In this document: one piece after another, positions 8,843 through 64,000 of the stretch
Layout: each line of letters starts with the position of its first letter
Position numbering within the stretch: the first letter of the stretch is position 1
Source: Ectocarpus siliculosus
Lineage: Eukaryota; Sar; Phaeophyceae; Ectocarpales; Ectocarpaceae
Direction of reading: 5' to 3'
DNA length: 64,000 nt
NCBI GenBank assembly: GCA_000310025.1
Contig: FN649751.1
Coordinates: 2,331,402-2,395,401, forward strand
Translations under genes and position numbers: made by a program
The notes under the pieces: model-generated
What the model saw: only the letters and a program-made list of their open reading frames with translations
Database searches by the model: none
Told to the model about the DNA's origin: nothing

Positions 8843-11800
8843 ATGCAGGACCAATACTTGCCGCCAGACGTGGTGAAGAGCACCTTTCGGCGATTGCGAA
8901 GCAAAGCCGATAACAAGGTGCGAAATTTCTTCTTCGAGAATGGAGACAAGGTTTCGGGAGACGCACGATCGGTGTATTGTCGTTGTCATTATATGCCGAC
9001 AGTAGTCGGGTCGTGTCTCCTTCTGTTGTGAAACTTTCAACGAAGCTAGCTGGGGCGGGTAGCGCTGATGCTGTTTTTCCTTTGTCGCCTGTGCCTCTAC
9101 GGACTACATACAGCATTAGATGGACTTTGTTCGTGCGCAGACCGCAGAGACAGCAGCCTACCGCCGTAGACTACTGCTGTGTAGATGAGAACAAAGGACC
9201 AGAGCCACAGACGGAGAGAGCGTCAAGGACTCACACGCACATCTTGCTCGGCTCTGTGTAGAGGACGCCGACACCTGCAGCGATGCCCTTCGGTTTGGTG
9301 CTGCTTTGTCTAGTGCTGTTCGGCTCCTTCCTCGCTCTGTGTAGGGGACTCCGCAGACAGCGGCAACCGTTTGTCCTGGTGATTGAGAACGTCACTCAAC
9401 TCTGGATTGCAGAGATACTCCGAGTACAGCTATTGTTTGCCCTATCTGGTCGCCGAGAACAACAGCAGGCGTGGGATAATAGCGTATTTTATCCTCTTGG
9501 CCAACGTTATGTTTTATGTTTCATGCGTAGGGCGTTCTTTGCCCGAGGTCGCTGGGGAAAAGTTACAAAGTTGTAGATTCGGAAATCTGTCCGCTTCCCC
9601 ATGCAATTCAAACGACGGCAACCAGTAGCACAGCAGGTACTTAGTTCCAGGCCTAAACTCCCTTGTGAAAGCGAAGTCCGCAGGGCGCGCATGCTTTCAA
9701 GTGCCGAAGAAGGCCCGCCCGTTGACGAGCAAAGCTGTAGTCAATCAGTCAGTCCTGCTGCTTACCGCTCCGTGGGTAAGTTACAATTGCAGCGCTCGGC
9801 ACTCCGTGAGGAACGGAAGGCTTTGTTTCCCAGCTACTGAAGTACTGTAATGTACCAGGTACCGCTGTACCATTAGTCTGGGACAACGTGTTCCTACAAA
9901 CACGAACTTCTGCTATCAACCTTTGGCATAACCAAGGTTGGTATTCTTAGAGAGGTTGGGCCTGCGTGCCGTGCACGGAGTTAATATTTTCATGGGCGTC
10001 CTCGGCTGCCCGTGTACTCTATCCGATTGCTGGAAAACGTCTTAAAAATCATTTTTTCTCTTGTGGGGATCCAATTTTTTCCGACGAGAATCTAATCAAA
10101 CAGCTGATCGGCTGATGTGGAAGAAAATGATCAGCTGCTCGTGTGTACACAAATTCGACGTCAGGGTCGACAAGGGAAAGGAATGAATGGCTGAAACCTT
10201 TCGCGGTAAAATTGTAGGCCGGCACCGCAGATGAAAGGCTGAGAGAAACAGAAACAACCACCGCGTGTTCGCTCCTGAGGGGCCTTTCCACCTGTGTCGC
10301 CATGGCTGATGCGTCCACAACACACGAAGGAAGTTGCATTATTATTATTTCACGTCTAGAAATGTTGTATTATTTCACAGACACACACACTCGGTGATTT
10401 TGCACCTGCGATGCCACCGCTGAAACGGCAACGTCTACTTGTGCCCCCACACACGCAACAGCAATCGTTTCGCCCGCTTTGCGCCGAACAGCCTTGACCC
10501 GATTCACACCCAACTTGTGCACTCCAAGCTGCTGTCAAACGACGACAGTATCGAGGAGCATATCTGTATCCCCCCCACGCCCCCCTCGCCTGACCGCTGG
10601 TGCCCCACCTCCCCGCACATCGTTGACTGGTGCGTCTGTCATTCCTCTATGCAAACCCCACAATTTTCAAGGTTTGTTTCGACTGTCCGACCCGGAATCC
10701 CACCTGGGCGTCGGCGACGTACGGCATTTTCATCTGCTACGACTGCTCCGCGGTGCACCGGAACATGGGGGTCCACGTGACCTTCGTCCGCAGCATCGAG
10801 CTGGACAAATGGAAGCCGTCGGAGATGGAGGTCATGAAGCGCGGCGGCAACGGCAACGCGCGTTCCTTCTTCCGCTCCCACGGGGTCACCGACATGGAGA
10901 AGTCGGAGCAGAAGTACCACTCGCGCGCGGCGCAGATGTACCGTGCCCACCTCAAGAAGGTTCGGTGGCTTTTTCTTAAGAGTATCTCGCAATTCTTAGG
11001 GGGACGTTTTCGTTCCCCTTGGCAGTTCTATCGGCTGGTGCTGAGGCTGCCGCTGCTGTTGTTTTGCTTCGGGACTTGTACAAATTCCCCAGCTACAGGT
11101 ACACATTGTTTTTTTTAAGCACGACGTTTAAGGCGGGGAACAGGGGTAGTAGCGCGCAGCAAAACTTTTACGACCAAACCGTCGTCCCGCCTCATATCCC
11201 TCCTCCGTCCTCTTTTCTGTTGTCCGTCCATCCATCCGGGTGCGCGGCTGGTATCATTAATCGATTCGGTACCGAACCTGGCAGGCGATGGCCGATCCCG
11301 GCGTCGTGACCCCCCCGCAGTCGCCGAGAGAGGAACCGGTGGACAGCGTCGCCGACGGCCTGGACCGCCTCATGCGGGACGTGGACGGCAAGCCGGCGGC
11401 TTCGGCGCCAGCCAGGGGCTTCACGAACGGCGGCACAGCAGCCAAGGGCCTCGCAAACGGCGGCGCCCCCGCGGCGGACGCGGCCGCAGCGGCGGCGAAG
11501 TTCGCACAAGCCTTCCCCTCCTCGTCGCAGCCCGCCGCCCCGACCAGCGGGTCGGCAGCGGCAGGCGGGCATGCCGCTGCTGATGCTCCCGCTCCGCCGC
11601 CGGTCAAGCCGTACGAGCCGAAGCCCCGCGGGAGCCTGTCGGTGTCCCCGCCAACGGCTCCAGCGGCGGCGGCGGTTGCGGTAGACGAGCCGAAGGCGAC
11701 GCCGGTGGTGCGACTCAGCTCCTCCAAGTCGCCCCCGCCGCGGGTTCGGAAGGGTGGCGCGAAGAAGATGGGCGCGCGGAAGCTGGGCGCGATGAAGATC

Positions 11801-20666: not shown

Positions 20667-23600
20667 ATGATTGGTGTAAAGAGACGAAGTCGGTCACCAC
20701 GACCCCCACGGTGGCTCCGCCCTGCGGGTGCGGGTGAATTGCTCTTCGTTCTACTTTTGGTCCAGTGGCGGCCATGTCGAGCATGTGAGAACCCATACGT
20801 CGTAAACCAGATCTTATCTGTGGAAGAACTGCTGCTGCTGTTAATCCAGGACATACTCTGACGGAGTACCTGTGCATGGCGACGGTATCGAGGAGGTTAC
20901 GGGCACACCTACCTACGGTAGTTCAAAAATAGTGATGTTGGGTGTATTTACGTATTTACACATACACTCACGCGTGGTTATTTATTTACACATACACAGG
21001 CAAGTAAATCTTGCTTGGTATCATGCAAAAGTGCTTCCGTGTTAGTCTACAGGGTGTGCTGAATCGCCTTGAGTGCCATAAATAGTCAAAGCTGGCCTTC
21101 ACCACTAGGTGCTACAGCAACGATGCAATTCTAACGCTGTAGACCTTGTCAAACCAAGTAAGTTGGCGGATTGGTTCAAGTCTCGGATACTGCCTTGTTC
21201 TGTTATACATGATGGCTACGCGCGTTCCTGGGGTAACTTACATAGATAGTGCCCAGCAACACCACCGCAGAGGGCGGCCGCGCAACGAACACCCCCTGTC
21301 TGTGTTAATTCAAGAACTCTGTTTTGCTTGTTTTGTGGTATGCCTGACCCTCACGAAGCCAACTGGGCCCAGATCGCTGGCGATCGCGTTCAGAACTACG
21401 CAATACCAGACGAAGGCGGGGCAGCCAACCCGCTCTTCTCTCCGAGGATGGGAATGGCGTTGACGACCACAAACACTACTATGGTAAGAAGCGACCAGCC
21501 TTGAAGAAAGTATGGTTCAAACCTCTTGGAAGAATACGCCGTTTTGCTGTCTTCGCTATTTGTCTTTCCAAGTCATTTGTGCATGCATGAACAAGGCATA
21601 TCAACAGACATAGACTATATATCAAATTCCATCCAGCGCCTCAAGGTCACGCAGCTGAGACGAGTTCCGTGCCGAGAGTTGGTTTTATCTGGTTGCCTCC
21701 CGTCACCAACCCCTTATGTACTCTTCTCGCTGTCTTTAAAAACTTGGCGGATTTCGGAATAGATGCGGACCCCGCCTTCGTTGACCGACCCATCCTACTT
21801 CCTTTTCGGTCTTGCGTCCTCCATTCATACTCAACCTTCGGTTGTTGGAATATTATGGTTAGCAAGCAAGGGAGAGATGCCCTTTCAAAGTTGGCTGAAT
21901 ACCTCCGGGGTTTTGAGAACATTGGGGTTTTGAAATCTTGTTTGCGCTCCCCAGGCTTATGCGTACTACTGTACTAAACAGTGGTCGACTCGAACTTGCG
22001 CGTTCATTGCCAATACGCTGATGACACAACCGATAAACCCACACCGTCCAATGAACATTTCCTTTTTGGCGTAGTAGCAATCCGAGCCCATCCCCGCTCT
22101 CTACGACTAGAAACGGTCTGTTAGAGATTGTGCTACCCAATCTATAATCTAAAGAAGCGATAGTCTCCAGCACTTCAGTTGTTAGTTTCCTTTGTCTTGT
22201 GCCGATAACCAATCCTTTGGCCGCGCGCAAAACGCACGAAACAGGACTCGACAAACGACTGGGGCTACCTCTACGTGATGGGAGGAGATAGCTTCGTCAA
22301 GACGACGGACGAAGACGCCGGCGAGCGCGGTGGGGGATACACCAACGACGTTTGGGTCACGGAGGGCTCCGGGTGGGAGATATACTCGGAGGGGAGCAAG
22401 CCGATGATCAAATCCACCATGGAATGGGACGAGGTTAACCCCGGTCGACTGCCGCCTGCCGGTGTGACCTACGAGGACTGGATCATATGCCAGGTACCTG
22501 AGATGGAGAGGTTGAAGGGGCGGGAGGGGGGTGATTCATCACGGAGGAGAGTTATCCATGGCAGCGAGGGCACTACTGTGATACTAGAAATGAAGAAAAT
22601 GGACGAGAACAAGTGACCCGTTTGCACAAAAGTTTACGCACTTGTTTATCCGTCGATTCCGTGCAGGGGGGTTGGAACTGTGTAGTATCTAGAACATGCA
22701 CCATGTATTGGACGAGCCCGGGGACCCAAGACAGTAGAGTGGAGCTCAGGGGGCTGTGGGGAGAGCAAGAGAGGAAGGAGACTCTCCGTAAGGGCCTGTA
22801 GGAGTGTTTCCCAGGATTGGGAGAAGTGTGACTGGATGGGAGAAGGAAGAGACCGGGACGAGCCATGCTCCTGGTATCCCAGGAAGAGGCACAGTCGGAA
22901 GGATATGCTTCACCGACACGCCGGCACTCGGGAAAAAAAGCAAACGGAGGGATGAACTTCGCTGCTTTTAACAGCACAAGACCGGAACTCCCGGCAGCAC
23001 GCTATTTGTGACGTCGACAGCTGTACATTGCAGCGGCTCAACAATTCCTGTACTGTAAGACGCGTTGCCGCACATTGATTCTTCCAGCTATAATATGACA
23101 GAGCGCATCTACTGCTCCTCTCATTAGAGCTGCCCCCTCTTCTAAGCCCACAGCACAACGAACCCGGCCCGCTCTATTTCTGCGCGTTTCTCACCATCTT
23201 TGCTTCGTTATTCCCGTCGAGAATAAACCTAAGCACATTTGAATCCACCTCCAAACAACGACACAAGCGCAGACAGAAAAACGAAAAAAAATAAGCCACA
23301 CGGAGTATAGGAGAAACAGTAACTGACGCTAAGCAAAAACAAACAAACCAAACAGGACGGACTGCGATACCGCCTCACCGACCCGACGGTGTGCGACGAC
23401 ACCTCCACTGCTCCCGGGATCTACACCGCCGAGAACATGTGGTCCCCGCGGCGAAACCACCGGGCGGTCACCCTGGACGAGCGCGTGCTGGTCCTCGGCG
23501 GCCGAGCGCGCGAGATCGCCGACATCCCGCGAGACCGCACTGTTGGGGGCATCCTCTCCCCGCGGATCGAGCCGGACCCGTTCTACAGCACCTGGCGCGA

Positions 23601-26600
23601 GCCCTCGGTGCTCAAGAACGACGTCTGGGCTTCGGACGACGAGGGGAGCACGTGGTTCCTGGTGAACCCGGGGTGCCAGGCCCCGCAGGCGGAGGACGTC
23701 CTGGACGGGAACGAGGCCCAGGGCAAGGCCGGCGTGCTCGCCAACGAGTGCTCCGCTGACGACGACTGCTACGGCGTCGGGGTGTGCGTGGACACCCGCG
23801 GGGACGGCAGGCACGCCACGTGCGTGTGCCCGATGTGGTCACCCCGGGAGCTCCACGCCGCGGCCGTCCACGACGGGAGCGTGTACGTAGTCGGCGGCTT
23901 CGTCAGCGTCCGGAGGTCCAGCTGCGGAGACTACGCCTGCGGCGACGTCGACGCGGGGGCGTACCGGGGCTACAAGTCGGACGTCTGGCGCAGCTCCGAC
24001 GGGGTGGCCTGGGACGCGGTGACCCTCGAGGCCGGCTGGCGGGGGCGGGGCGACCACGGGCTGTTCGTCTACTCGGACAGGATGTACGTCGTGGGAGGGG
24101 CCGCGGACGGGGGGGACGGCCGGGTGAGCTTCATGAACGACGTGTGGTACGCTGATCTCCCCGAGAGGTGAGCAGGACGCGGGGGGGGGGGGCGTATCTT
24201 TCAACGCGAGTCTCCCTTTCAACGGGTAGCGGGAAACAAGGCGGTCTAGCGTGCAGATAGCTCACAGAACGGTTTGCACTCTCTACCTGGTTCATCCCAT
24301 CCGTAGCCCCGAAACGAACTCGACTCACGGTGTGAAGAAGATTGCAAGGTATCCGCATCCTGATCTCTGGCAATACCTACACTAGAACGCGTGTTTCAAG
24401 AGCAACCAACGATCACCGCACAACGATTGAGCTCCCGATGACTGTAACAACGGCGGCGGCGGCGGAATACTGGCAGCGGGAGTGGCGGCACGGACATGTC
24501 GTCCTGGAACACGAGCGCCGCCTCTTCGGCGGCCTGGTCGGGACGCGCCGGGCACCAGGTCGTGTTGGAGGTACCGGCGGCCATCAACGCCTTCTCGCCG
24601 CGGGTGTACGTTATCGGGGGCCACAACCACGCAGGAATCCTCAAGGATACCTGGTACGTTCCATCACCGTGCAGTGGCAGGTGGTCCCTGGGGTTGGTGG
24701 GAAGGAGCGGGGGGGAGAGAGAGAGATAGAAGGTCACTATGGGCCTGGAGACAGGCCAAAGCTTGTTGATTAGCGGGCTGGGGCTGGCGTAGAGAGTCTC
24801 GATCGCTAACGCGATCACCAAATGCCCGGCACCAAGCCCAAGCACGATCATCGTGCCCGTGCTGCTGCAGGGTGGGGGTAAAAACACGCGGTGCGCGCGT
24901 CAAAACACAAGCTGTGCTTTCTTGTCTGTTGCGTTTCAAGTGTAGCCCATATCCTACCCCGTTACCTCCAACACAACCATCAGCTATTTTTACCGTCTTG
25001 TCTACTGCTTCGTTCCCCGCTGTGTGCCGTACTCCACGGCTCCCTTTCTCCTGCCACTAACGACAACACCAAACCACCACAACCGTACCAACAACAACCG
25101 TCACAGGAGCTGGGACGTGAGCGAGGAGACTTCGGCCGGAGCGGCGTGGGCCAAGGACTACTCCGCGGAGCAGCCGTACCGCACGGCGACGGCCACCACC
25201 ACGGGCTTCGTCCCGGGCCCGCCGCCACAGATGTTCTACGTCGACGGAGACAGCCACGTCGACCTGCTGAGGAAGGCCTTCCTGCCTACCTGGGCGCCGT
25301 TCGAGCTGGGATCGGTGGAAGCGGACCTACGGCCGCTCGTTACGGACGAGGAGGCCCTGATGCTCGTGGAGGCCGGGGTGAACACCATCTCGGAGCTCGT
25401 GGCCGCCGACAAATACACGATTCTCAAGCTCCGGGGTTATGATGTGCCGCAGGTAAACGTGCGAGTTAAAGCTGTGAGAGCGTCGGGGAACAGAGGGGGG
25501 GGGGTACCCGGTTGCTTGCCTCGGCCGTTTGGCACGCGCGCTTTTTCGACTAGGACGAATGTTCGTGGTCCACATTGAGACCGGTTTGCCAACGAGCTCA
25601 TGTCCTCTACAAATCAACCAGGTTTGGGGTATTGAAACATTAGCAAATCAACCATAGTTTATCTATAGCATTATTTTTGTCATTGGTCATCACCAATGGT
25701 ATCGGTCTTCCAAGTCGAGACGAGGTGACCAAACGGCGTAGCAGTCTCACGTTCTTCTGACAACGCTCGTGTACTTCCCGAGGGCACCTCTTTCTGTCCC
25801 TGTACAGAGTCCACAACCTACTCTCCATTTGCCCTTGCCATTTGGATATTGCGAAGACCTTCCGCCGTAGTGCTGGGTTTTACTGGTGTACTCCTTCGTC
25901 CTTTGCGGCAAGTTCAATTTCCCTTCTAGAAGGGGGGGGGGTTGACAAACGGTTCAGTGCGCGTAGGGTGAGAGGGGCGGGGGTCATGGTAATGATGACG
26001 GCTGATCTACTTGCCCTCCCTCTGGCCGTTCCCCGTCCCTCGTTCGCCATCGCGCGTAATGTCCCATGATATACACAAAATTTTGCATGTGGACGGCAGG
26101 TCCCTCTCGAGGACATGGTAATGATGACGGCTCATCCACCGCCCTCCCTCTGGCCGTCCCCCGTTCCTCGTTCGCCATCGCGCACAATCTCCCATGATCA
26201 GGTTCCTCTAGAGGACCGACTCTCAGTCCTTCACATCTGTGATCTGCGTAGTCTGGCCGTGTATCTGGTGGAGAAGTGTACTGTGGACCCAGACGCTGAT
26301 AAGTACAACGGAGAGGATGGCCAACCGTGGAATGTCGAGCCCGTGTTTTCGGTAAGCTTTACCGAGTTACACCACACGCTTGAAGTGGGACTTCACAGCA
26401 ACACGCACGCTACTTGTACTCGGCAATGTTTCTTCATGATAGGAAATTCGTCGGTCGTTCGTGTGGACCAAACCGCCGAAACAAGCATTTGTATACGCTC
26501 GTGTACGTCATGTTTTACAATACCATGGTCGTAAACAGCGCTCAACGTTGATTTCTGCAGTACCCATACCTAAGCAGCCAAGCCTTCGAAAATAGAGCGG

Positions 26601-54637: not shown

Positions 54638-56102
54638 TTCGTCCTTCTTTATTATGGCGACAGTCCCCCCATTTTTCGTGGTGAGGCATGTACTACACTT
54701 TTCAGTGCATGTCAAGTACTACACTTTTCAGCGAATTTTTCGTACAACTACAACCATCCAGGGTCACACGGGAGGGAGTAAACACCGGGGATTTTTTCGG
54801 CCGATAAATAAACGAGGCCGCACACAGGATGCTCACACCTCTGCGCGCGAGGGTTTTCCGTCGGCGCCCTTGGTGGGCGGGATGAAACCGCCGGAGATGT
54901 CCATCCCCTCGCACGGCCGACACGCGAACATCCCCGTCGGCATCTCGCACCCCAGCTTTTCCAGCTTTTCTCGCATGAACTTTACCTTGGGACCTGTCAA
55001 TATTTCAAAAACGTGGTGCGAAGTTGTTCTTGTTTAGCCCTCTGAGCATTGTTGTTAACCGGCAAATGACCATGGGAGGACGTCTGTCTCCGAGGAAACT
55101 AAGCGCTGTCTAATACCGCCGTAGTCCGCGGGGTGTCCCGACAGGGATTGCGTGCGTTTAGACTTCTTGGACTCGTTGCGGACCGTGTGTAACCGGCTGA
55201 CCTTATTTAGACGTTAACGTTGTTACGGGACAACACAAACGCAAACGTGCGTTCTGGTCCGTGGGCTCCCTTGACACAAGGGCCGCTTGGGAGATTGGAC
55301 TTCAAGGCTCCACTGGCTGTGTGAGTTTGCGCTATTCGAGCACAGACACCGCGCGCCCGAAACACCCGAGAGCTGCGCCGCGACTTGCGATCTACGAGCT
55401 ACTGTTGTGCTGGTCTATTCAGTGCTTGCACATCTCCCACTACTCAACATCTCCGTCGGTGCACCGGCAGAGCATTGCAAGACGACTGCCGGTGCAACGT
55501 TTGGACAGATAAACGTCCCGTCCGTGTGCCTTGTCAATCGTGTGTGATGGTGGTGCGACCTATGCAACATTCGTGCCTTGATTAAGAAACGACCAACTAC
55601 TTAATCATTGTATGTTATTTTGTGTCGGACACGCTACTGTAGACACAGGAAACAACCTATGCTATGTACTCCAACTATTCTATGTCCTGCTGTCCTGCTG
55701 TCGGCACGCCTCCTACTTCGCCAGTCGATTTTGAAACCCTGTTGATGCGGTCGACGCAGCTTTTGGAACCTCCGAACCTCTCACTACCGTCTGCTATGAG
55801 AGATAAAACCTGGTACGAATCATCTCCCAACCAACATCCCAGCAATGCAAGGCTATCTACGTTCCTGTAAAACAGCCTTGCAGCACAGCCTAACGACTAA
55901 CTACTAGAGGTAGACACACTGGATGGAGCTTCGAAGAACAAGCGGTGATTCGAAATATCTGTGGTCCCGTTGCTCACTCACATCTCTGTAAACTGTACTG
56001 CACCATCTCCTCACAACGGCTTAGCTGCTTTTCGGCTTCACCCGCATTATCGACTGCAGCATTTCCAGGGCCGCCATCTGGACTGCTTGATGTCGTCGAC
56101 AT
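52523..56102 (-). CDS. ATP23: ATP23, mitochondrial inner-membrane metallopeptidase
   Basis: Five minus-strand exons join in phases 1, 0, 0, 0: 56102-55982, 54993-54839, 53922-53788, 53062-52919, 52597-52523; 209 residues. Exon 1 gives MSTTSSSPD and then CEEMVQYSLQR. Exon 2 has PKVKFMREKLEKLGC and the paired cysteines CRPC with GGFIPP. Exon 3 has the zinc-peptidase motif HELIH (residues ~112-116) followed by AYDQCR and NCLHVACTE. Exon 4 has IRASNTSGEC and CVKRRAELSVKA. Exon 5 ends CYYDTEPYDKNPL, the conserved family C terminus. All catalytic and cysteine positions known in the family are present. In yeast ATP23 processes ATP synthase subunit Atp6 and assists its assembly in the intermembrane space. 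Start is the ATG at 56102, only 337 bases from the divergent purine gene. There is no cleavable presequence, as expected for this twin-Cys import family. Confidence 0.94.
52599..52637 (+). repeat. (TCG)n microsatellite directly upstream of the last ATP23 acceptor
   Basis: About twelve TCG units; on the ATP23 sense strand this is (CGA)n ending in CAG, occupying the usual position of the polypyrimidine tract. A related (CGACAA)n stretch lies before the acceptor of the exon starting at 53922. Confidence 0.9.
54140..54190 (+). repeat. (GA)n microsatellite
   Basis: About 24 GA units in the ATP23 intron between 53923 and 54838. A (GT)n tract follows at about 54605-54634, and a 25-bp direct repeat (GTACTACACTTTTCAG core) at about 54689-54732. 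Confidence 0.93.
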
Positions 56103-56439
56103 GGCGCAGGCGACGAAAGAGCGCGTTGGCAACCTGGCAACCTGGGCAGCGATCTTGCTCGCGTTTAGTTCCGCCGCATTGCACTCCGGAGCCCCTTACC
56201 CCCCGCGCCCTTGCCCATTCTGTGTTGCCGCAAGGCCTTGTGCTGCTGGTTGGGCCTGCCTGCCTCTGCTGCTGCTGCTGCTGTGTGCAACTTCACTGGG
56301 CACGGGCGCAGGCGTGTGACTGCAGTGTATTGGCACACATATCGGTAAACTGTAGAGCAGCGCTTCCTCTGACCTATCCCTGCCAACCACCCAACCAATA
56401 CCGCCGACACTTCTGCAAGCTGCGGCTGGAGAGGGGGCA
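56103..56439. promoter_or_regulatory. Short bidirectional promoter region, ATP23 / purine gene
   Basis: 337 bases separate the ATP23 start codon (minus) from the first assigned ATG of the purine gene (plus). It includes a CTGCTGCTG tract near 56266-56283. No TATA box seen. An in-frame stop at 56353 upstream of the purine ATG supports a start at 56440, or a splice acceptor near 56418. Confidence 0.45.
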
Positions 56440-59400
56440 ATGAAGGCCGTGTTTGCGGGCAAAGCTCAACCAGGCGCGGTTGGAGCGGCGCGGCGCCTGC
56501 TGGCGAGCGGGCTCGCGATCGTGACGGTCAACTCACCAGGGACTCACCACGCCCTGAAGGAAGCCGGCATTGCTCACCAAGATGTGAGAAGGAAGCCGGC
56601 GTCTGTTTTTTTGCTCATTCCCCATGGAATATGTATGCATGCATGTTTGAAACCTGATTGAACTTTTGAAATAGGACGTGTGCGTGGCGGATCCAAACAT
56701 GCATGTTGTCGCGGGGCTGGTGTGTGGTGACGCCTTGTCATGAACAACTGCAGGGCGAGGAAGTGGGTTGAATGCGTGTTGGCTCTCTTGTTGATCACGT
56801 TCCTGTTCAAAGCCTGCTGGAGTTCCTGTCGTTCCGTCTCCAATTGCTTGGTTGCTAATAACTACGCTCTCGGTCGTCAGAAGGGGCTGCTTGCCGCCGG
56901 AGCCGACAGCACTGCCGGCGTGGCCGTAGTGGTGGGAGGGCTGGAAAGCGCAGCGGATGTCGCCGGGGGCGACCCGAGCACTCATGCGTTCATAAGGTGA
57001 CCGCAGGTTGTTTTGTGCGTGCTTCAATGGTTGCGCCGCTGCCACTCTATTCAGCCAGCGTTTGTATCGGATCATGCTCGCATGTTTCATCTATGTGGTC
57101 ATCTATGTAGTGGATTATTGGTTGGTGCTGATTGGCTATTTGTGTGCATTTGCGGCTCCCGCCAGAAAGCCTGGCCTACAGCAGCACTGGCGGTTAAACA
57201 CACAGGGTCATTATTTTGTTTGGAACGCATCGCTCGTCCACAAGGACAAGGAGCTAGCGAATGGCAGCGGGAGCATGGGTCTGCAAGTCAGTAGCGTTCG
57301 CGTGGCTGTCTTGTTGGAATTTATTGAATTTTCAAATTTCGCCAGCACCCACTGCAGGAAGCATGTGTGACGGCAGACCTAGCATACGATACCTGCTGCA
57401 TACCTCGCAAAAGTGTTTGTAAGGATGTGGGGTCGGGCTCAATTCTGCATTGTGCTCTTGTAACAACTTGACATTGGAGTTACCGTCTTCCGTGTCTCTA
57501 CACAGCAAGTAGCCGTAGCGACAGCAGTTGTCGTACAACCTCACCCCTCGACTTGCACACATCGGCGTAAAACGGGTCCTCTCTTTCTGTAGCAAAAAAC
57601 GCGTCTCGACCAAACGCCGTGTGTCCCCCCTGCCTAGACCCTACCAAACAAGCAAGCAGGTACAGCAGTAGACAGATAAAAAACACCGAGAGCGAGCACA
57701 CCCGTTTCCCCCCCGTCCATACATGTAGGGCGGCAGCAGTCCAGCACGCGCGCATCGCCGTCGTGGTCGACCCGGAGGACCTCTCCAAGGTCGCAGGTGA
57801 GTCCCCCAGCACCACGGACGGCCTCATGCTGTCCTCCCTCGGCCGCCGCTCTCTCGCCGCCAAGGCCCTGCGGGCCACGTCCGCGGCGGACAGCCGCATC
57901 GCCGAGTCGCTCCTGGCGGACGACACCGAAGCGATTCCGGGGAGCGGCGGCGGAAGCGGCGGCGCCGTCGTCCTCGTCATCGGCTCCGGCGGCCGCGAGC
58001 ACGCCATCGCGCTCAAACTGGCCGACTCCCCGCGGGTGTCGCACGTCTACGTGTCCCCCGGCAACGGGGGCACGGGAAGCGGCCGCCATGCGGGCGTTTC
58101 CAACGCCGACATCCCCTCCTCGGCAAAGAGCGGCGACGGGCCCCACGCCGCTGTCGTGGAGTTCGCAAAGTCCAAGGGCGTGTCTCTGGTCGCCGTGGGG
58201 CCGGAGGTGCCCCTGGTGGACGGCGTCGCGGACGCGCTGGAGGCGGCCGGGGTGCCGTGCTTCGGCCCCAGCGCGGCGGCGGCCAGGCTGGAGGCCTCCA
58301 AGGCCTACTCGAAGGACTTCATGGCGCGCAACGACCTGCGGACGGCGCGGTACGCGTGCTTCACCGACTTCGAGGCGGCCCGCAGCTACGTGATGGAGGC
58401 CGGGCACAGGGTGGTGGTGAAGGCGTCGGGACTGGCGGCCGGGAAGGGGGTGCTGATGCCGGAGACGAAGGAGGAGGCCGTCGCGGCGCTGGAGGTGGTG
58501 ATGGTGAAGAAGGAGTTCGGGGAGTCCGGCGCGGAGGTCGTGGTGGAGGAGTTCCTGGAAGGGGAGGAGGTGCGTGGGAGAGAGGAGAGAGGAGGCCGGC
58601 TTCCTCTCCTGGCTCGGAGAGAGGCAGTGTCTGGTGCTGTGCTGTTGTTGTTGTGGTGATGGTGGTGGTGTTGCGGGAGGGGTGTCGTTCGAATGTCCCT
58701 GACTACGTGCTCCTGGCCAATTGTTTTATGCGCCTGCTCGTCAGGGTTGCTCCTGCTTTCCTCTGTGGTGCACCCAGTTCCTTGTAACAAGTACCAAAAA
58801 GCGGCATCTTGTACGTGGGACTGGGTTCGGTTGATCCGGTTGGTCGGTACGTTGATACCCTTGCTGCTGCTGCTGCTACTACTGGTACCACAAACATGCA
58901 TCGTGGCCTATTTCGACCTAACCTCGCAGGTGTCCATCCTGGCCATCTGCGACGGGAAGACGGCGGTGTGCATGCCGGGGGCGCAGGACCACAAGCGGGC
59001 CCTCGACGGCGACGGCGGCCTGAACACCGGGGGGATGGGCGCCTACGCGCCCGCGCCCTGCCTCACCCCGCGCCTGGCGCGAGAGTGCGCGGACATCTGC
59101 CAGTCGACGGTCACGGCCATGGCGGCGGAAGGAAGCCCCTTCGTCGGGGTCCTCTTCGCCGGCTTCATGCTCACCAAGCAGGGGCCGGTGGTGCTGGAGT
59201 TCAACGTCCGGATGGGCGACCCTGAGACGCAGGTCCGTTTTGCCTGAGGTGGGGATTGTGTAGGAGGGGGCGGGGTGGAGAGCTAGATGGCATGGGGAAA
59301 ATTGCCGGCATGTGTATGTACGTAATGAGAGCAGGTTGGCCAACCTTCCGGTGAGTGGGGAGGGAAGAAGCTATTGTGGACGATCACCGGGTGTTGCGAA

Positions 59401-62400
59401 CCGTGTTTTTGGTAGAGCAACAAAACACCCATAGGATCGGACCTTGGCGTACTCTGGTGCACACCAAGCAGTAGGAGCGTATGTCCATGAGTTTTTTTAT
59501 GGGCACGTCTGTACAAAACCGCGCAACCCACAACCTCGATAAAACATCATCAAACCACCGGACACCCGTCGTCGCCTATTGTACTTACCCAACCAAGCAC
59601 GCACATGCTGATGTAAAACCTCAACCGCACACAGGCGCTGCTCCCCCTGATGGAGAGCGATCTGTACGAGGTGATGCTGGCGTGCACTGAGGGCCGCCTG
59701 GCCGAGACGCCCGTCGCCTTCACGCCGGGGGCGGCGGCGGCCACCGTCGTCCTCGCGGCCGACGGCTACCCGGGCAAGTACCCCAAGGGCATGCCCATCT
59801 CGGGCCTCGAGGACGCCGCCGAGATCCCGGGGGTCACCGTCTACCACGCCGGCACCAAGGCGGCGGCACCGGCGGCGGCAACGGCGGCGGAGACGCAGCT
59901 GTCCGTGAGCGGCGGCGGCGGCGGCGGCGGCGGTGTCGTGTCTTCCGGCGGCCGGGTGCTTGCAGTTACCGGGACCGGCGCGAGTTTCGCGGAGGCGCTG
60001 GACGCGGCGTACCGCGGGGTCGGGTTGGTGAAATTCTCGCCCTGCCACTACCGGAAGGACATTGGGCACCGCGCGAAGACGGCGCCGCTGAGGGTCGGGG
60101 TGCTGGCCTCGGGCAGGGGCACGGCGCTGCAGGCGGTGATCGACTCGTGCGCCACGGCGGCGGAGGACGGCGGCGTGAACGCCGAGGTAGTGATCGTGGT
60201 GACCAACAAGAAGGAGGCCCCCGTGAGGGACCGGGCGAAGAAGCACAGCATCCCCGAGATCTTCGTCGCCTCCAAGGTGATGAGCGGTGTTTTTGTTTTG
60301 GCCGTCTCCTCTGGCCGGTGCGCGCCGGCCGCCTTGGGAGGTTTCGGTTGAGCAGTGACGAGGCTATGCCCCAACTCTACTCTACCGGGTCCACTCTCCC
60401 TCTTTGAGGTCACACCCGTTCACCGTTGTTTTGTTCGACCAACCTTGCTGATTTTCTTGTCGTGTGCTTCTTGTGTTGGAGAATGCCAGCGTACGAGCGC
60501 CGCAAGCTCCCAAGGAATCTTGTCGAGGCAAAGTCCGATTGACGATAGACGATAGAATACGACAACGAGTGAACGCTCGTAAACATCAAATATTGACAAT
60601 TAAGTGCCCGATTGTCTCGAGTCGCGCCCGCTGTGGTTTTGAAGGTAGTCTCCAAATCTGAAAATCACTTCCCCGCCGCCGCGCGGAGAAAAGCTCACCT
60701 CTCTCGGTCGGGTTTTCGCACTCGTTTCTCATCCGACTACATCTACGCGCTAATTTACGCGTCCTTCGACAACTAACGGCGACATGGATAACTTCTTGAC
60801 TTGAGTTGCTCTCCTCTCCGCCTTGGCGTGTGCATAATTTACGTACAACAATACTGGTACATCACGACGACAACGACGACGCATTGCGCAACAACAACCA
60901 ACTGTTAGGGCCGAGAGCGCGCAGCGTTCGACAAGGAGGTGACCAAGGCCCTCGAGGACGCAGGCGTGCAGCTGGTGCTCTGCGTCGGGTACATGCGGAT
61001 CCTGTCGCCGGAGTTCTGCCGCCAGTGGGCCGGGCGGTGCCTGAACGTTCACCCTTCCCTCCTCCCGGACTTCGCCGGGGGCATGGACTTGCAGGTCGTT
61101 GCCGCTGTTAATCCCTCCCTCAAACTACACGGCCGGTAAAATGCTAGTTGTAGATGTCAACAGCGAATTTTCAACGTCGCGCAGTGTACTATTAATACTG
61201 ATGATACTTTGCCGTTCGTTGGCGTGTTTCGTGATCATGTTGTCGTCGTTGTTGCTGAAAGCGACCACCTTCGTTTTTTGTCACACCGGTGTGTGTGTGT
61301 GTGTGTGTGTTTCTCTCTGTGTGTGTGGCAGGTCCACGAAGCGGTCATCGCCGCGGGCAAGACTCGCTCCGGCTGCACGGTGCACCAGGTGACGGAGGAG
61401 GTAGATTCGGGGCCGATCGTGGTGCAGGAGGAGGTGGAGGTGGTCGAGGGGGAAACGCCCGAATCCCTCAAGGCTAAGGTGAGTCCTGGTGTGCTCGTCT
61501 GAAGAACGAGCTTCAAGGCCAGGGCAGGTTTTGGTTTTCTCTTGCGTCGTTACGGTAGATGGCCGTGGTTGCTAGCGAAGCGAACCTCGAAGAGCTAGAG
61601 GCCGGAAAACACGGCTTGTTTTCCAACCGGAGGGTAGTGGGATGTTTGTTGGTCTGTAAGCGCTGGGTGTAGCCATGGTTCGCGGGACTTCTTTTGCGCT
61701 GACTTTTTTTACTCTTCGCGAGAGTCACGCAGCGATATCTTCGTGAATCGGGAGGTGGAGGCAGTGTTCCAAGAGGGGAAATCCCAACCCCCAAGGCTAC
61801 CAGGTCGGTCAGTTTCATGTTTCCTATTGGACCAGTTGAGTGCGCTCCCTGGCCTCCCCCTCTCCCTCTGTCGGTTCGCGATTGGTGGTCGGAAGTCTGG
61901 GTGTTCGCCGACCCCCCGCACCTACTGTACCTTTTCTTTCTGCTTTGGTTGTTTTATCCCCTCTTTGCTTGCCTGCTTAGCAGCGGCCTTCCTTCAAGAG
62001 CACCGCCACACGCATTTTCATCCCGCTCACGGACGGTGCTTCAACTGCAACGGTCGTAGTTTCAGCGAAATAACTAACAATATATATCACGCCACGCGAA
62101 CGCCAGGTGCAAGCCAAGGAGGGTCCGGCCTTCCTCAAGGCCATGGGCTTGTTTATGAAGGGGGGCGGCCGCGGAGGTACCCTTCCCCCTCCCCCCGGCG
62201 CCGCCGCCGCCGCCGCCGCCCCGTCGAGCGGCATGAGCTACAAGGACGCCGGGGTCGACATCGATGCCGGCAACAGCCTGGTGGAGCGCATCAAGCCGGC
62301 GTGCAAGTCCACGAGGCGACCGGGTTGCGACAGCGACCTCGGGGGTTTCGGCGGTCTGTTCGACCTCGCCGCCGCGGGGTACGAGGGGAAGGACACTATC

Positions 62401-64000
62401 CTCGTCGGGGCGACCGATGGGGTCGGCACCAAGCTCAAGGTAGGCTACGTTATAGGAAGGGACGGATGGACGGAGGGAGGGACTGGCTGATTTTTGATTT
62501 GTTGTTTCTAGGAAGGCGTTGGAGGATACATAGGTCTCGCGAGTAGGTGTGGGCACTCAGGTCGTGACAGGTACACACCCCTTGTGCCGTGTACCCGAAG
62601 CGTATGATGCCTACCCTCCAATCGGTGCCTGCGCGTAGACTGCGGTGTACAGTGCAGTAGCCGACAGCGCTCTCTATCCCGAACGGTTCGCTCTCGTGCG
62701 ACCCCCCCCTCACACGCGCGCGTTCCCAGGTCGCGCAGATAGCGGGAGACCACAGCGGGGTGGGCATCGACCTTGTGGCGATGTGCGTGAACGACCTGAT
62801 CGTGGCGGGCGCGGAGCCGATGTTCTTCTTGGACTACTACGCCACCGGCAAGCTTTCGGTCTCCGAGGTATCTAGAAGTTTGTGTGTGATGTGCAATGTA
62901 TGAGGATGACGCGTGATTTTCCATGTGTTTTTATGTTTGTTAGCACACGCCATGTTGGTGCATTTTTTCTTGTTGTTGTTGTTGTTGTATATTTGTTGGA
63001 GTTGCTTGTCTCCACTTCTCGTTTGTCCAAAGGCATCGGCATCCATGAGGTGACTCCCTCTGGTTGCGCTCTCCTTCTGTTTTATGGCCATATAGTACCG
63101 ATTCGTCTCTACTCTTGTATGCACGGTCTGGTCCTATACTTTTGGTGGGGTGCAAGACCTGGAACTCAGCTTCAGCCGCGCAAACCGACAACAGAAAGTC
63201 GGCACGACCACGACCAGACAACCCCAGCAAACCAGCCAACAAGGGCTGCCACTCTTTTTACGCTGACCCTCGTGATTTTCTTCCCTGCTCCTTCGTCTTC
63301 TTTCCTTTCTCGTGCTGGGTTCTCTCCTCATCTTCCCAATAAATACTGAACCACCGCCAACACACACACACACGACAAGGCGGCCACGGTGATCGAGGGC
63401 ATCGCCGAGGGCTGCCGCCAGGCCAACTGCGGCCTCATCGGCGGCGAGACGGCCGAGATGCCCTCCATGTACCCCGCCGGAGAGTACGACCTCGCCGGCT
63501 TCAGCGTCGGCGCCGTCTCCCGCGGCAAGGTCCTCCCCCTCCAGGTCTCCCCCGGAGACGTGGTACTCGGCCTCCCGTCCTCGGGCGTCCACAGCAACGG
63601 CTTCAGCCTGGTGCGCCGGATCGTAGAGGTGAAGGGGCTGTCCTACGGGGACCCGGCCCCGTTCAACGCCGCCGGGGGGGGGGCGGGGGCGGGGGGCAAG
63701 AGGAGGACGCTGGCGGAGGAGCTGCTGGTGCCCACGCGCATCTACGTAAGGGCGCTGCTGCCGCTCCTGCGCGCGGGGCTCGCCAAGGCGCTCGCGCACA
63801 TCACCGGGGGAGGCTTGTCGGAGAATATCCCGAGGGTGCTGGGGGCCGACGTGGCCGTGAGGCTGCGGATGGGATCCGCCGCCGCCGCCGCCGCCGCCGC
63901 CGGTTCCTCCTCAGCGTGGGACCTGCCGGAGATTTTCCAGTGGCTGAGCGCCGCGGGCGGGCTGACGCAAGAGGAGCTGCTCCGCACGCTGAACTGCGGG
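56440..64000 (+). CDS. GART: Multifunctional purine biosynthesis protein: degenerate PurH-like domain + GARS + GART + AIRS (truncated by window end)
   Basis: Ten exons, all in phase: 56440-56583, 56881-56996, 57729-58569, 58930-59232, 59635-60276, 60909-61094, 61332-61478, 62107-62439, 62730-62867, 63380 to beyond 64000; 1157 residues visible. Residues 1-~160 resemble a shortened IMP cyclohydrolase domain ([38 protein letters not shown]). GARS follows: [19 protein letters not shown], an ATP-grasp region with [34 protein letters not shown], and a C-terminal lobe with an Ala/Gly insert before [19 protein letters not shown] has [13 protein letters not shown], catalytic LNVHPSLLP (Asn, His) and [11 protein letters not shown] (Asp). 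AIRS has [48 protein letters not shown] and [11 protein letters not shown]. These catalyse steps 2, 3 and 5 of IMP synthesis. AIRS lacks only its last segment, cut at the window edge. The N-terminal join is less certain than the rest. Confidence 0.9.
56675..56719 (+). other. Possible 45-bp micro-exon in purine-gene intron 1
   Basis: Bounded by an AG (56673-56674) and a GT (56720), open in phase 0, encoding [15 protein letters not shown]. This would add sequence where PurH normally has its DV...HP-VH-G-L segment, so it may be an included exon. The donor is weak. Not included in the main model. Confidence 0.3.
61291..61330 (+). repeat. (GT)n-rich microsatellite at an acceptor
   Basis: GT repeats interrupted by TTTCTCTC run directly into the CAG acceptor at 61331 of the purine gene. 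Confidence 0.85.

Follow-up and report, generated by a model that had tools for sequence, protein, structure and literature searches.

We examined a 64,000-nucleotide stretch of the Ectocarpus siliculosus genome (hereafter the window), toward the end of which a plus-strand gene is predicted to begin with an ATG at 56440 and to comprise 10 exons (Table 1). The spliced translation gave a protein of 1,210 residues with zero internal stops. Seven further exons beyond the first three complete the gene; the last of them crosses the window end, and the stop codon lies at the window-equivalent position 64160-64162 (L008:1160-1162). Every one of the nine introns is bounded by GT and AG and preserves the reading frame. 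Eight of them are in phase 0; the exception is intron 2, in phase 2, where a split AG/G codon rebuilds Arg87 within a 20-residue stretch read across the exon 2/exon 3 junction. The original prediction had joined 56440-56583, 56881-56996 and 57729 onward in phase, and the coordinates, the splice sites and the split codon all agree with it. Zero N was present between 55000 and 64000. Exons 1-3 have a GC content of 0.65-0.73 compared with 0.50-0.56 in the introns that follow each of them, a coding composition. Among overlapping non-coding windows, 9 of 5886 reached the codon-use score of exon 1 and 0 of 5916 reached that of exon 2; the background for this comparison came from introns that belong to the same windows.

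Other open reading frames were identified around this gene. On the minus strand, an ORF at 54833-55030 matched Peptidase_M76 (E=1.3e-5), presumably of the ATP23 type; to judge by its sequence, it is probably a divergent neighbour gene about 1.4 kb upstream. About 2.2 kb beyond the gene end lies an ankyrin-repeat ORF (L008:3314-3997; Ank_2 E=3.8e-24), and elsewhere in the window the plus strand carries an ArfGap domain ORF at 10627-11115 (E=2.4e-33) and a Kelch-repeat ORF at 23323-24168 (Kelch_1 E=7.2e-10).

Table 1. Exons, introns and encoded domains of the fusion gene (window coordinates; IMPCH, IMP cyclohydrolase)
Feature	Coordinates	Strand	Description
Exon 1	56440-56583	+	144 nt, phase 0; residues 1-48, start of IMPCH-like (MGS-like) domain
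Intron 1	56584-56880	+	297 bp, phase 0, GT-AG
Exon 2	56881-56996	+	116 nt, phase 0 in/phase 2 out; residues 49-86 and two bases of Arg87
Intron 2	56997-57728	+	732 bp, phase 2, GT-AG
Exon 3	57729-58569	+	Completes Arg87; residues 88-154 IMPCH-like (57730-57930); Gly/Ser linker; start of GARS
GARS (PurD)	57970-60072	+	Residues 168-614, exons 3-5; 45% identity to E. coli PurD
GART (PurN)	60091-62142	+	Residues 621-805, exons 5-8; 37% identity to E. coli PurN
AIRS (PurM)	62233-64000, past window end	+	Residues ~836-1204, exons 8-10; 48% identity to E. coli PurM

All three catalytic domains, GARS, GART and AIRS, are present on one chain. Pfam matches over the cut-off were obtained for GARS_N, GARS_A and GARS_C (168-614), Formyl_trans_N (621-805) and AIRS and AIRS_C (from 888), which places the domains in the order GARS-GART-AIRS and not in the animal-type order GARS-AIRS-GART. 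In blastp, E. coli PurD, PurN and PurM scored 319, 118 and 317 bits against the fusion protein. The GART domain keeps the residues aligned with Asn106, His108 and Asp144 of E. coli PurN, which we take to be catalytic. As far as their sequences indicate, the three domains should perform steps 2, 3 and 5 of purine synthesis. In the assembly (189,456,909 bases, 492 contigs), a search for GARS_A at E≤0.001 matched two exons of this gene and nothing else, match counts for this domain being lower bounds.

PurH similarity at the N terminus

Ahead of GARS, residues 1-154 were found to resemble PurH in three libraries, Pfam, NCBIfam and PDB, and this similarity is significant at both profile and sequence level, as for a PurH2 domain. 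A profile search, which had been proposed for residues 1-160 as a check and was run with residues 1-165, recovered PurH in NCBIfam through PRK00881.1 (E=1.9e-7) and TIGR00355 purH (E=3e-7), both from residue 83 on only; these matches scored 30.3 and 29.7 bits, the whole-protein cut-offs of 402 and 528 being far higher. PF01808 (AICARFT_IMPCHas) was matched at E=4.3e-5 with 23.5 bits, narrowly missing its curated cut-off of 25. Among the best ten PDB chains, the top four were PurH (E≤6.5e-7) and the next two were PurH-type (0.059 and 0.15). The best chain, 1p4r (E=1.8e-7), presumably human ATIC, aligned in two collinear pieces, residues 3-56 with ATIC 7-58 and residues 84-146 with ATIC 130-191. 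The first piece is weak (11.2 bits) and the second (21.4 bits) makes up most of the total; the alignment of exon 1 extends eight residues into exon 2. The flanks of this region had been said to read like the start and the end of IMP cyclohydrolase, and the two collinear ATIC pieces bear this out.

We also scanned 55000-58600 in six frames without splicing, taking ORFs of at least 10 amino acids. The two top ORFs were those of exons 3 and 1, on one strand and in PurH order, with scores of 36.1 bits (profile 131-194) and 10.6 bits (profile 6-52); the profile was built from 32 of 38 prokaryotic PurH ORFs (described below) and E. coli PurH, which inflates the scores of exon 3, not those of exons 1 or 2. 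The observed score was equalled by 0 of 2000 shuffles for exon 1, 30 of 2000 for exon 2 and 0 of 2000 for exon 3. When E. coli PurH was used by itself, the score was reached by 17 of 2000 shuffles for exon 1 and by 0 of 2000 for exon 3, and exon 2 gave no score.

Exon 2 scored only 1.9 bits, at profile positions 131-146, which is not its collinear place; only its final residues (HAFIR) enter the alignment of exon 3, and most of the exon has no collinear similarity. It is consequently assigned by its reading frame and position, its flanking splice sites and its codon use. The weak score falls on a 17-residue stretch of exon 2 (56887-56940) that shares profile positions 131-146 with a 15-residue stretch at the start of exon 3 (57729-57780), which may reflect chance or an old internal repeat. 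That exon 2 duplicates the start of exon 3 in the wrong place was considered and set aside, given that the weak score fits but is equalled by the shuffles counted above.

An error in the gene model, with exons 1 and 2 coming from another transcript or exon 3 joined to a different upstream exon, would explain why exon 2 taken alone has little similarity and scores away from its collinear profile position, and the lack of similarity in this exon makes such an error less unlikely. However, exons 1 and 3 match PurH in order and on one strand with no splicing assumed, the open frame of exon 3 has no Met before GLML, which itself sits within the PurH-like part, and all of the junctions are GT-AG and in phase, and we regard this explanation as unlikely. 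Altogether, the sequence comparisons support an N-terminal domain derived from IMP cyclohydrolase, shortened, and in frame with GARS-GART-AIRS.

Catalytic residues and the second PurH-type gene

In the IMP cyclohydrolase domain of ATIC/PurH, the motifs RVKTLHP and RAAAKNH each hold a catalytic Lys. For human PurH, Lys66, Tyr104, Asp125 and Lys137 have been named as important (Brown et al. 2011, PMC3261824). We aligned the IMPCH-like domain with E. coli PurH and with the PurH domains of 38 loci, which were the relatives of residues 1-165 among the matches listed (at least 593 pattern stretches) and which all come from bacteria or archaea to judge by their record titles. All 38 ORFs and the query have the pattern AVVVDPED in common, and none of the 38 carries the other five patterns; this bias touches the likeness to exon 3 and not the counts of catalytic residues elsewhere. 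Lys66 (RVKTLHP) is K wherever a PurH row reaches that far (37 of 37, one row being truncated), and the stretch is deleted in the IMPCH-like domain. Tyr104 (NLYPF), which is Y in 38 of 38 rows, falls in a gap, and Lys137 (RAAAKNH), K in 38 of 38, is replaced by Val91 (57739-57741).

Asp125 (IDIGG) is D in all 38 rows, and IDIGG itself is absent from the IMPCH-like domain. What stands at this position depends on the alignment: it is Asp79 (56971-56973, exon 2) in one alignment and by ungapped count, Asp79 lying eight residues before Arg87 with the spacing of PurH Asp125, and Ala in the 38-locus alignment.

The RVKTLHP stretch was absent from the exons and from all three forward frames of introns 1 and 2. 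A hidden extra exon in either intron was set aside, as no suitable frame and zero N were found there. At the DNA level, the RVKTLHP pattern had three matches in the assembly, all with Phe for Leu and with no PurH context visible. The original prediction of a missing RVKTLHP, of AVQH in place of AKNH, and of a shortened IMPCH-derived domain upstream of the enzymes for steps 2, 3 and 5 is supported, with Lys66, Tyr104 and Lys137 lost and the frame continuous. Since the Lys66/Tyr104 stretch is lost and Val occupies the Lys137 position, the domain should not close FAICAR to IMP.

A search for a separate intact PurH in related genomes had also been suggested. In the present assembly, a search with the purH profile returned seven matches, one of which is the fusion gene. 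The other six belong to a second PurH-type gene on the minus strand of contig C483 (96816-102320), all within profile positions 156-511, and three pieces of it score 39-61 bits on PF01808. No part of the assembly yielded the N-terminal half of the cyclohydrolase domain of this gene (about 1-155); just 5′ of the gene, where that half would be expected, lies a run of N of 23,444 bp (C483:103194-126637), perhaps a gap left by the assembly. An ordinary PurH is very probably encoded in this genome, and an intact copy that includes the cyclohydrolase half is likely.

These observations also bear on whether the domain is still an active IMP cyclohydrolase whose active site has been remodelled. Such an enzyme would account for the finding that the assembly yielded no other N-terminal IMPCH half, and would be in keeping with Asp79, which falls at the place of Asp125 when residues are counted back from Arg87 without gaps. 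However, Lys66, Tyr104 and Lys137, which are invariant where present in the 38 PurH loci among the matches listed, are all missing, and the ordinary domain probably belongs to the PurH gene that is preceded by the 23.4-kb run of N. An active enzyme is therefore very unlikely. We are fairly sure that the IMPCH-like domain is a genuine part of the fusion and is not catalytic.

Other searches of the assembly gave further results. With residues 1-165 as the query, it returned the gene's own three exons and one further match (E=0.55) with a stop inside. PF02142 (MGS) had three matches, all of which read as carbamoyl phosphate synthetase, and the fusion gene was not matched. As a separate observation, the assembly contained 82 chlorophyll-binding matches, and the top-scoring one most resembles fucoxanthin chlorophyll a/c proteins. 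Contigs C92, C232 and C488 hold clusters of such matches with identical scores (127.6 bits), which suggests recent tandem amplification or duplication in the assembly.

Possible roles and origin of the IMPCH-like domain

We propose that one gene encodes a degenerate IMPCH (PurH2) domain followed by GARS, GART and AIRS. The degenerate domain keeps both of its ends and lacks the central Lys66/Tyr104 stretch, and it would still fold. The missing stretch is, as we take it, an edge strand and the active-site loop of the MGS-like fold, so that its loss is perhaps tolerable. Once folded, the domain may serve GARS, an ATP-grasp enzyme, as a module without catalysis of its own and guide enzyme assembly, for example by docking with PurH; alternatively, it may be regulatory, like the MGS-like domain of carbamoyl phosphate synthetase. 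We assign a probability of about 0.5 to this reading, that is, a four-domain protein in which the degenerate IMPCH domain folds and serves as a non-catalytic module on GARS. That the domain has been retained because it does something structural or regulatory is likewise about as likely as not. More specifically, the pseudo-cyclohydrolase might sense IMP, AICAR or FAICAR and feed back on GARS, or pair with the IMPCH domain of PurH and so tie the early steps to the last, both of which we put forward only as an unlikely elaboration.

As a single species was examined, the strongest rival is a neutral relic, in which a PurH-GARS-GART-AIRS fusion carries a dead IMPCH part that drifts without harm to the enzymes behind it. 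Exon 2 is barely PurH-like, and GC3 is lower in exons 1-2 (0.69 and 0.71) than in the GARS-to-AIRS part (0.93), as drift would have it. The IMPCH part is also far more diverged than the neighbouring domains: a single-sequence model of the IMPCH part of E. coli PurH scored 18.6 bits against residues 1-154, a rough comparison with the blastp scores of PurD, PurN and PurM, as program and length differ. On the other hand, 154 codons have remained without a stop or frameshift, and what has been lost lies chiefly around the active-site stretch, both domain ends being recognisable. In favour of the proposed module, the domain is part of a protein that is presumably essential, given that the only GARS_A matches of the assembly lie here, yet it has stayed open. 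We consider a drifting relic rather unlikely.

It was also considered whether the first part of the former IMPCH domain has turned into a cleavable organelle-targeting peptide. Residues 1-40 hold no acidic and five basic residues, whereas the PurH rows hold one to six acidic residues there (38 rows, namely 37 loci among the matches listed and E. coli, one short row being dropped). However, the hydrophobic moment of 0.35 falls inside the spread seen among the PurH rows, no ochrophyte plastid signal peptide was seen by eye in the upstream frame, and the PurH similarity of residues 84-154 reaches far past a presequence. A targeting function is accordingly quite improbable, and we return to the non-catalytic module as our preferred reading.

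We then looked for relatives of the fusion in collections that are not algal. Residues 1-367 gave 12 pattern matches and no relatives among viral contigs, and residues 1-165 gave no relatives among plasmids, the one match (E=1, 48 residues) being listed under a transcriptional regulator. The AAAVQHA DNA pattern occurred in at least 120 stretches of viral contigs, and 0 of 120 aligned with the IMPCH-like domain at tblastn E≤0.1. None of the 38 prokaryotic PurH ORFs among the matches listed carried a GARS-GART-AIRS part, and a GARS match was found within the fetched flanks of 9 of the 38 loci. In E. coli, purH adjoins purD and purM adjoins purN, and one may speculate that the H-D-N-M order of the fusion descends from such gene neighbours.

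A limited literature search returned no description of an IMPCH-GARS fusion. Fusions of purine enzymes as such are known; what would be new here is the extra degenerate domain together with the order GARS-GART-AIRS. If real and conserved, the protein would be an architecture of an essential pathway that was unmet in this limited search, with a dead form of the last enzyme joined to steps 2, 3 and 5, and a test case for non-catalytic enzyme domains that organise or regulate purine synthesis, a question for which transient complexes in mammalian cells are otherwise the object of study. It might, in addition, mark the lineage of brown algae or stramenopiles.

Comparison with known systems

The IMPCH-like domain is similar in sequence to PurH/ATIC at both ends of the IMPCH domain, and the two ends are collinear. 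It differs from PurH/ATIC in its length of about 154 residues compared with about 200 in E. coli PurH, in the absence of the TGFPE..GRVKTLHP and NLYPF stretches, in the change of AAKNH to AAVQH, and in being followed by GARS and not by AICARFT.

The animal trifunctional enzyme has the order GARS-AIRS-GART, and yeast has GARS-AIRS. Similarly to the animal enzyme, the fusion protein carries GARS, GART and AIRS on one chain, but their order is GARS-GART-AIRS and a degenerate IMPCH domain precedes GARS. PMC10912719 describes the trifunctional enzyme of vertebrates and reports that TrifGART and ATIC both occur in purinosome clusters in mammals.

In both carbamoyl phosphate synthetase and the fusion protein, a related fold is attached to an ATP-grasp enzyme, GARS_A being so named by Pfam. 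The phosphorylation domains of carbamoyl phosphate synthetase are ATP-grasp domains. The IMPCH-like domain differs from the MGS domain of that enzyme in that it also has a PurH-specific C-terminal part and is not matched by PF02142. In CPS1, the MGS-like domain is an allosteric domain that binds the activator NAG, and the glutaminase part has Ser in place of the catalytic Cys (PMC4655335).

Halobacteria provide a further case, in which PurN is fused to PurH1 (PMC3261824). There, as in the fusion protein, a PurH part is joined to another purine enzyme; however, it is the AICAR transformylase part that is fused in Halobacteria, whereas in the Ectocarpus protein it is an apparently inactive IMPCH part.
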